In this document: in pieces, positions 3,369 to 4,643 of the stretch | Numbering within the stretch: position 1 is the first letter of the stretch | Layout of the letters: each line of letters starts with the position of its first letter | Virus record (IMG/VR): IMGVR_UViG_3300030116_006853 | Span: 1-41,183 of that record | Strand: one strand, 5' to 3' | DNA from: a virus | Length of the DNA: 41,183 bases | Notes under the pieces: generated by a model | What the model saw: the letters and a program-made list of their open reading frames with translations, nothing else | Databases searched by the model: none | What the model was told of the DNA's origin: nothing | Program-made: the position numbers and the translations under genes

Positions 3369-3713
3369 ATGAACTTACAAATAAAATCATCAAGGTCTGT
3401 ATTAGTTACAGATAGTGCAGTAAAAAAACTTTTAGAACTTAAAGAAGTAGAAGGTGAAGAAAGTTTTTTAAGAATGGCAGTAAAGCCGGGTGGCTGTTCT
3501 GGATTATCTTATGAAATGTTTTTTGATACAGATAAGTTTGATAATGACATATTCGAATCTTTTGAAGGTGTGGAGATTGGAATAGATTCTCAAAGTTTGC
3601 CACACATAAAAGGTTCTACACTAGATTACAAAGAAGGCCTTATGGATTCTGGTTTCTCAATCGATAATCCAAACGCAACAAGAACTTGTGGATGTGGAGA
3701 CAGTTTTAGCTAA
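3369..3713 (+). CDS. A-type iron-sulfur carrier (IscA/ErpA/SufA-like)
   Basis: A 114-residue protein with the full A-type carrier signature: Cys43 in KPGGCSGLSY, and Cys107 and Cys109 in the C-terminal TCGCGDSFS. These three Cys bind a [2Fe-2S] or [4Fe-4S] cluster and pass it to apoproteins in the cytoplasm. The length matches cellular ErpA/IscA (about 105-120). It has its own promoter and probably a leaderless start, and stands alone without other Isc/Suf genes, so it must rely on the host scaffold. A possible client encoded in the window is the ferredoxin at 21603. A-type carriers are known auxiliary genes of marine phages; which one it descends from cannot be told here. Confidence 0.9.
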   Translation: MNLQIKSSRSVLVTDSAVKKLLELKEVEGEESFLRMAVKPGGCSGLSYEMFFDTDKFDNDIFESFEGVEIGIDSQSLPHIKGSTLDYKEGLMDSGFSIDNPNATRTCGCGDSFS

Positions 3714-4018: not shown

Positions 4019-4047
4019 TTGACAAATAAAATTAGTTGTGGTATACT
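4019..4047 (+). promoter_or_regulatory. Promoter with extended -10
   Basis: TTGACA (4019-4024), a 17-bp spacer ending in TGG, then TATACT (4042-4047). AAGGAAAAATA precedes the GTG start at 4099, leaving a leader of about 45 nt. Confidence 0.7.
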
Positions 4048-4517: not shown

Positions 4518-4564
4518 TTAAGACTATCAACAAGGCCCCCTGCTGAGTTGGTAGTCTTAATTTT
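4518..4564 (+). terminator. Long hairpin terminator upstream of the tRNA-like RNA
   Basis: A 14-bp stem (4518-4531 with 4547-4560, one G-T pair), a 15-nt loop containing GGCCCCC, then TTTT. It ends the 4099 gene. The GCCCC in the loop is complementary to the first bases (GGGGC) of the next RNA, so the two could interact. The TGG-TAGTCT at 4549-4557 ends 7 nt before 4565 and might be a weak extended -10 for that RNA. Confidence 0.55.
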
Positions 4565-4643
4565 GGGGCTGAGTGGTTAGACTTTATTTTTATCCGGCGA
4601 TTTAAATAAAGTAACGAGGGTTCGACTCCCTCCAGCTCCACCA
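4565..4643 (+). ncRNA. Anticodon-less tRNA-like RNA with tmRNA-type acceptor domain
   Basis: A 79-nt element. Acceptor stem: 4565-4571 pairs with 4633-4639 over 7 bp, with G-U at the third pair (G4567/T4637), the alanine identity element. Discriminator is A, followed by an encoded CCA. T-arm: 4616-4620/4628-4632 with a perfect TTCGACT loop. There is no D-stem, only GTGGTTAGAC, similar to the tmRNA D-loop (GGATTCGAC). The anticodon arm is replaced by a 9-bp stem 4581-4589/4604-4612, then a short stem 4592-4594/4599-4601 capped by CGGC, with no anticodon. The ends GGGGCTGA...CCAGCTCCACCA match typical tmRNA ends, but there is no mRNA-like tag region. Confidence 0.7.

Follow-up and report, generated by a model that had tools for sequence, protein, structure and literature searches.

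AlaRS, SmpB and EF-Tu all bind to the tRNA-like domain (TLD) of tmRNA; together with SmpB, this domain mimics a whole tRNA on the stalled ribosome, and by itself it can bind SmpB and EF-Tu there (PMC3968760; PMC3929946). In vitro, SmpB and a TLD fragment have been reported to produce polyalanine without an mRNA (Shimizu and Ueda, 2006, as cited in PMC3929946). Mycobacteriophage DS6A encodes a "TLD only" tmRNA, and RNA of this type was reported to inhibit tmRNA strongly in E. coli, perhaps via titration of SmpB (Mao, 2009, cited in PMC4131195 and PMC11915505). According to Hudson (2014; PMC4131195), inhibition by a TLD-only RNA is independent of its chargeability. A tmRNA database published in 2025 recognizes a class named "Standard, no CDS" with nine unique sequences, and the same source describes a CDS-less tmRNA retained alongside SmpB in jakobid mitochondria as well as a plastid tmRNA of about 65 bp in Mallomonadaceae (PMC11915505). 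Given DS6A and these nine database sequences, the TLD-only form is not new in kind.

Here, an RNA gene of this form is described from a viral contig of 41,183 nucleotides (IMG/VR record IMGVR_UViG_3300030116_006853), the whole of which is referred to as the window. The contig is that of a marine phage, with siphovirus-like genes for terminase, portal, protease, capsid and tape measure. The RNA gene is located 275 nt upstream of terL. A phage IscA-type iron-sulphur assembly protein is also encoded in the window, at positions 3369-3713 (PF01521, E 4e-16).

Structure and descent of the RNA

A first-pass annotation, made from the letters alone, had described a tRNA-like RNA with alanine identity and tmRNA-type ends that lacks both an anticodon and a tag. 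Each part that it listed, namely the acceptor stem with G3-U70, A73, the CCA end, the T-arm, the stemless D-segment and the capped 9-bp helix, was found at 4565-4643(+) (Table 1). The 7-bp acceptor with G3-U70, A73, the T-arm and the stemless D-loop are the features that characterize the tRNA-like domain of tmRNA. All seven acceptor positions are paired, G3-U70 included; this pair directs alanylation. The minimum free energy fold (-28 kcal/mol, z -3.56, with 2 of 200 shuffles equally good) contains the acceptor stem, the T-arm and the 9-bp helix.

Table 1. The RNA gene, its parts and its upstream surroundings in the window
Feature	Positions	Strand	Details
TLD-only tmRNA-like RNA gene	4565..4643	+	79 nt; acceptor stem, D-loop, P2 hairpin, T-arm, A73, CCA
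Acceptor 5' strand GGGGCTG	4565..4571	+	G3 of G3-U70 at 4567
D-segment AGTGGTTAGAC	4572..4582	+	stemless; family consensus GG-TTCGAC (family alignment)
P2-like hairpin	4581..4613	+	9 bp ACTTTATTT/AAATAAAGT; small capped loop replaces anticodon arm/mRNA domain
T-arm	4616..4632	+	5-bp stem GAGGG/CCCTC, loop TTCGACT
Acceptor 3' strand CAGCTCC + A73 + CCA	4633..4643	+	U70 at 4637, A73 at 4640, encoded CCA 4641-4643
Stable hairpin + short U-tract	4519..4564	+	13-bp outer stem, -20.7 kcal/mol; abuts RNA 5' end
Sigma70-like promoter candidate, best upstream	4019..4047	+	TTGACA-17-TATACT, 11/12, extended -10

A search with tmRNA and tRNA covariance models, one of the checks that the first-pass annotation had named, assigned the RNA to tmRNA. 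The Rfam tmRNA model RF00023 scored 48.6 bits at 4565-4643 against a curated cut-off of 47, this was the sole Rfam match above its curated cut-off in the whole 41-kb window, and in the Rfam clan competition at this position tmRNA beat tRNA. Both ends of the model, from position 1 to position 374, were aligned to just 79 nt of the window; thus, the mRNA domain is absent. The element contains no mRNA-like domain with a tag reading frame and stop codon, and no pseudoknots, since no sequence is left between the P2 strands to form any. The 9-bp helix corresponds to the outer part of helix 2 of tmRNA, closed by a cap. These results bear out the claimed lack of anticodon and tag and strongly support a tmRNA of which the tRNA-like domain alone is left. 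The covariance model R1, in which the element is itself included, recovered it with 60.2 bits (E 1.7e-12). ARAGORN called neither a tRNA nor a tmRNA over the element.

Other identities were considered and rejected. A tRNA-Ala was ruled out by the missing D-stem and anticodon arm, the absent ARAGORN call and the outcome of the clan competition. A permuted two-piece tmRNA (RF04321 and others) was ruled out because the window has no match to a library that does detect SM1, PA_L9, Rb1 and BUCT628. The permuted tmRNA genes of Pseudomonas phages SM1 and PA_L9, Xanthomonas phage Rb1, Acinetobacter phage BUCT628 and Alcaligenes phage QDWS595 (L197, L352, L350, L348 and L349; RF04321 103-124 bits) are apparently unannotated. 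Finally, a mini-tag in the loop, which in the window would read GCG AUU UAA, was ruled out, as frames leading from GCN to a stop occur in 19 of 71 inserts against 21.1 expected from shuffled sequences.

Upstream of the RNA, the hairpin at 4519-4564 possibly represents a terminator of the preceding gene or a processing element; it escapes the terminator scanner owing to that program's loop limit, and its stem carries a compensatory change in the closest relative, L002. The overall number of sigma70-like promoter candidates upstream is not above chance. Against cultured phages, megablast of the window region returned no match, and BLAST of the element returned none covering most of it; the best rows comprised the T-arm and acceptor 3' end only and came from tRNA-Ala genes, from tmRNA genes of full-length or permuted form, and from stretches lacking annotation. 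Comparison of terL indicated no clear host.

Conservation in relatives and across phages

Thirty relatives were recognized via the terminase. In L002, with 93% terminase identity, the element is identical to that of the window at 76 of 76 nt beside a preceding gene that is 90% identical at the DNA level (chance about 4e-4). Directly 3' of the RNA the two sequences diverge completely; in L002 the next gene is another one, and CCA is incompletely encoded. Alignment in related phages, another check named by the first-pass annotation, revealed copies in L013, L014, L015 and L017 (about 85% terminase identity) that have diverged strongly and show compensatory changes in the acceptor. For example, the acceptor of L017 reads GGGCGTG/CACGTCC versus GGGGCTG/CAGCTCC in the window. 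The P2 helix of these four copies differs wholly in sequence and retains its pairing, so that both covariation and conservation were found. The relatives' copies score 33-46 bits with RF00023 (cut-off 47). In L017, the copy precedes terL by about 3 kb and follows a different gene than in the window. In the contig sequences of other terminase-defined relatives, several of which are 19-52 kb long, no copy was detected. The element is therefore an accessory gene, conserved by structure.

Pattern scans showed that well over 100 IMG/VR contigs share the same TLD-only RNA, amounting to at least about 167 distinct sequences in at least about 71 clusters below 80% identity. The first pattern, with tmRNA-type ends (acceptor fixed) and a short middle, retrieved 102 stretches, including 98 loci with a complete 7/7 acceptor and 5/5 T-stem. 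In the second, the acceptor stem was left free; among the matches listed, at least 101 of 112 parsed matches have both stems, and at least 81 are unique. Within these 81 unique elements of the listed matches, G3-U70 occurs in 78 and A73 in all 81; the three exceptions to G3-U70 comprise one mis-registered element, one tRNA and one odd element. Pairs 4-69, 5-68 and 6-67 each show four or more pair types among the matches listed, with 4-69 and 5-68 alternating among GC, CG, AU and UA. Since G3-U70 and A73 are nearly invariant while the adjoining pairs vary, alanine charging is under selection. The alanine identity that had been claimed for the window element, which has both determinants, is thereby strongly supported. 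One element, L283, is odd in lacking G3-U70 and overlapping a tRNA call. Chance, tRNA or 3'-end-only matches (L129, L112, L167, L183, L256, L258, L057 and L325) were removed.

P2 pairing played no part in selecting elements by pattern. Even so defined, P2 is paired at 7/7 positions in 67 of 157 elements among the matches listed, versus 1.1% in controls with strands swapped between elements. In an alignment whose rows were pre-selected for pairing, 97% of cells are paired and the covariation score is 0.85, compared with 0.16 +/- 0.015 after shuffling and at most 0.15 when slid. An overlapping alignment with untrimmed D-loop, its rows likewise pre-selected for pairing, gave 0.95 versus 0.20 shuffled, and slid controls gave 0.12-0.20 over both alignments. 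Insert lengths are mostly 30-36 nt: 104 of 116 matches with inserts of 21-47 nt are structural, as opposed to 6 of 89 with inserts of 55-85 nt. This discreteness argues against an origin of TLD-only RNAs through random decay of tmRNA. A decaying tmRNA or tRNA-Ala pseudogene, with which the patchy presence among the window's relatives would agree, is accordingly very improbable; it is contradicted by the complete identity in L002 beside a 90% flank, by P2 pairing and compensatory evolution, by the length class and by the near-invariant identity elements.

Genomic settings and cellular copies

Among the loci listed, ARAGORN makes a call within 150 nt of 36 of 167; most of these calls are tRNA neighbors on the same strand, and a few are false calls over the element; the other family members are themselves usually missed or mis-called by this program. 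In cultured Streptomyces phages, unannotated gaps within tRNA arrays hold the element, as in LuckySocke, Shaeky, BRock, pSt2308, Alone3 and Riptide (L193, L194, L195, L196, L198 and L351; R1 57-74 bits), and phage GiJojo gave the same BLAST match. Because current annotation misses the family, leaving such gaps "empty", a dedicated covariance model would annotate many phage genomes. An 88-nt TLD-like variant with a longer middle was observed in the tRNA cluster of Microbacterium phages Vitas and Franklin22 (L345:541-628 and L346:541-628), with a G3-U70 acceptor in Franklin22.

No universally conserved neighbor gene was found, and the head protease and capsid genes recur. In 33 contigs (for example, L071, L114, L171, L202, L210 and L224), the element precedes the major capsid gene by about 100-300 nt and shares its strand; the capsid proteins concerned are about 29-76% identical to the queries, and the upstream gene, where inside the locus, is the head maturation protease. 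The capsid-gene and tRNA-array settings suggest a plentiful, processed RNA late in infection. A rival reading is a purely cis-acting role, in which the tRNA-like fold would mark a site of RNase P or 3'-end cleavage and give late mRNAs (capsid, terminase) a defined, stabilized 5' end, with no function in trans. The placement between protease and capsid genes and that of the window copy before terL fit such a role, which could apply in at least one lineage. However, many other copies lie in tRNA arrays or elsewhere, the position shifts among the window's own relatives, and RNase P substrates need neither G3-U70 nor the tmRNA-specific GGAC and TTCGAC motifs. As a general explanation, a cis-acting element is consequently quite unlikely.

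The family is also found in cellular genomes. A GTDB scan yielded 23 stretches, and of 13 bacterial genomes carrying the TLD-only element, 10 additionally encode a full-length tmRNA. Ten Candidatus Poribacteria MAGs carry a chromosomal element in conserved synteny (L322:861-943(+), L326:4093-4175(+), L311, L313, L318, L319, L323, L324, L328 and L329), where about 100 nt separate the element from the end of a convergent downstream gene, apparently for a PLP-dependent decarboxylase. These elements are preceded by promoter-like sequence and have compensatory changes in P2. In 7 of the 10 genomes, a full-length tmRNA is encoded elsewhere, and in the four genomes that were read its acceptor stem is the same as that of the TLD-only element. 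Bins of Lentisphaerae, Mycobacterium and Phycisphaerales likewise hold both forms, and there the 3' end of the TLD-only RNA is unlike that of the full tmRNA in its own bin. One Poribacteria MAG contains a second, shorter TLD-like RNA, L344 (G021:C58:4906-4976), enclosed by promoter-like sequence and by inverted flanks forming a terminator (AACCGTCAAACAC...GTGTTTGACGGTTCTTTTTT).

As tmRNA genes are known targets of integration, the element might instead be an attP site or integration scar bearing only the 3' end of a host tmRNA. In two carriers, L158 and L163, a tyrosine integrase is indeed encoded within about 1.3 kb of the element. Yet 41 of 50 carrier records lack a tyrosine integrase, and in most of the other nine it is more than 3 kb away; the 5' half of the RNA is complete and covaries with the 3' half; and in L320, L327 and L331 the TLD 3' end is unlike that of the full tmRNA of the same MAG, which argues against attP copies. 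For the window, which has neither a tyrosine nor a serine recombinase and whose element has a complete, covarying 5' half, this origin was ruled out, and for the family, whose occurrence is independent of integration, it is hardly credible. SmpB is encoded in none of the 50 carrier records; therefore, host SmpB would be the partner.

Proposed action and relation to known systems

In our preferred reading, the locus is a phage gene for a TLD-only tmRNA, which probably works as an alanylated decoy, capturing SmpB, EF-Tu and stalled ribosomes and thereby blocking or diverting trans-translation. Removal of the tag-coding and pseudoknot part of tmRNA and capping of helix 2 would have left the TLD alone. 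After transcription, tRNA-processing enzymes would excise the RNA from the phage transcript, host AlaRS would charge it with alanine through G3-U70 and A73, and SmpB and EF-Tu of the host would bind it. The RNA would then rival host tmRNA for SmpB and stalled ribosomes, so that tagging, proteolysis and orderly rescue may be blocked or diverted during infection. A ribosome accepting it could not switch to a tag, because the RNA lacks a resume codon. For the window element, alanylation and SmpB-dependent ribosome entry are predicted from the identity elements present. The published DS6A work is in line with the proposed role, in which the Ala-charged RNA competes for SmpB, EF-Tu or the ribosome, and the inhibition reported there is why a charged decoy is favored.

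That G3-U70 is nearly invariant suggests a natural role for charging. There is accordingly room for a stronger version of the model, in which the ribosome actually uses the Ala-TLD and, with SmpB, may even add untemplated alanine. In productive, tag-free rescue, the Ala-TLD with SmpB would repeatedly enter stalled ribosomes and add alanine, or pass the ribosome to another rescue factor; ribosomes would be freed and phage proteins spared ssrA-directed proteolysis. The mRNA-free polyalanine synthesis cited above indicates that alanine tailing, and not a blockade, may result, and the CDS-less tmRNA kept beside SmpB in mitochondria (PMC11915505) and the strongly conserved charging identity of the family point the same way. 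However, the DS6A-type RNA is reported as inhibitory (PMC4131195; PMC11915505), and productive rescue appears unlikely, if less so than a cis-acting role.

The presence of this tag-less RNA in more than 100 other phage sequences suggests that many phages may interfere with or redirect host ribosome rescue. Were the decoy mechanism true, many phages would attack trans-translation with an RNA built from the pathway's own tRNA half, ribosome rescue would be a battleground of infection, and the RNAs would supply naturally occurring, genetically encoded inhibitors of a pathway that is pursued as an antibiotic target, as well as natural versions of the TLD constructs of structural work. More broadly, and tentatively, TLD-only tmRNAs may form a large, ancient class of natural ribosome-rescue regulators, carried by many phages and on Poribacteria chromosomes beside full tmRNA, that act by charged-decoy inhibition or untemplated alanine addition; control by a tag-less paralogue would then be common rather than the property of one odd phage.

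With bacterial tmRNA (ssrA, RF00023), the window RNA shares the G3-U70 acceptor stem, A73, the stemless D-loop, the GGAC linker, the T-arm and the start of helix 2, but it lacks the mRNA-like domain, tag, stop codon and pseudoknots, and measures 79 nt as opposed to 230-400 nt. The engineered TLD fragments (PDB 2CZJ and 4ABR, as described in PMC3929946 and PMC3968760) likewise consist of the TLD with helix 2 shortened and capped; however, those are laboratory constructs for crystals and in vitro translation, whereas the present family consists of natural genes under selection. The permuted two-piece phage tmRNA (Melnitz, PMC9004378) is also a phage-borne tmRNA relative, yet it retains the coding piece with its halves in reversed order, and the window has no permuted match. 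The jakobid mitochondrial and Mallomonadaceae plastid tmRNAs similarly have no tag CDS (PMC11915505), but presumably they are the only tmRNA in their organelles, whereas in phages the RNA would occur alongside the tmRNA of the host. The closest counterpart, compared by description only, is the DS6A "TLD only" tmRNA, which is phage-encoded, has little beyond the tRNA-like domain and lacks a tag CDS. DS6A is the sole phage named with this form in the cited papers, in contrast to the roughly 71 sequence clusters, mostly from uncultured phages, found here. As far as the open-access literature shows, the new points are the scale in phages, the selection for alanine identity, the repeated occurrence beside capsid genes and within tRNA arrays, the copies overlooked by annotation in cultured Streptomyces phages, and the paralogue of Poribacteria.
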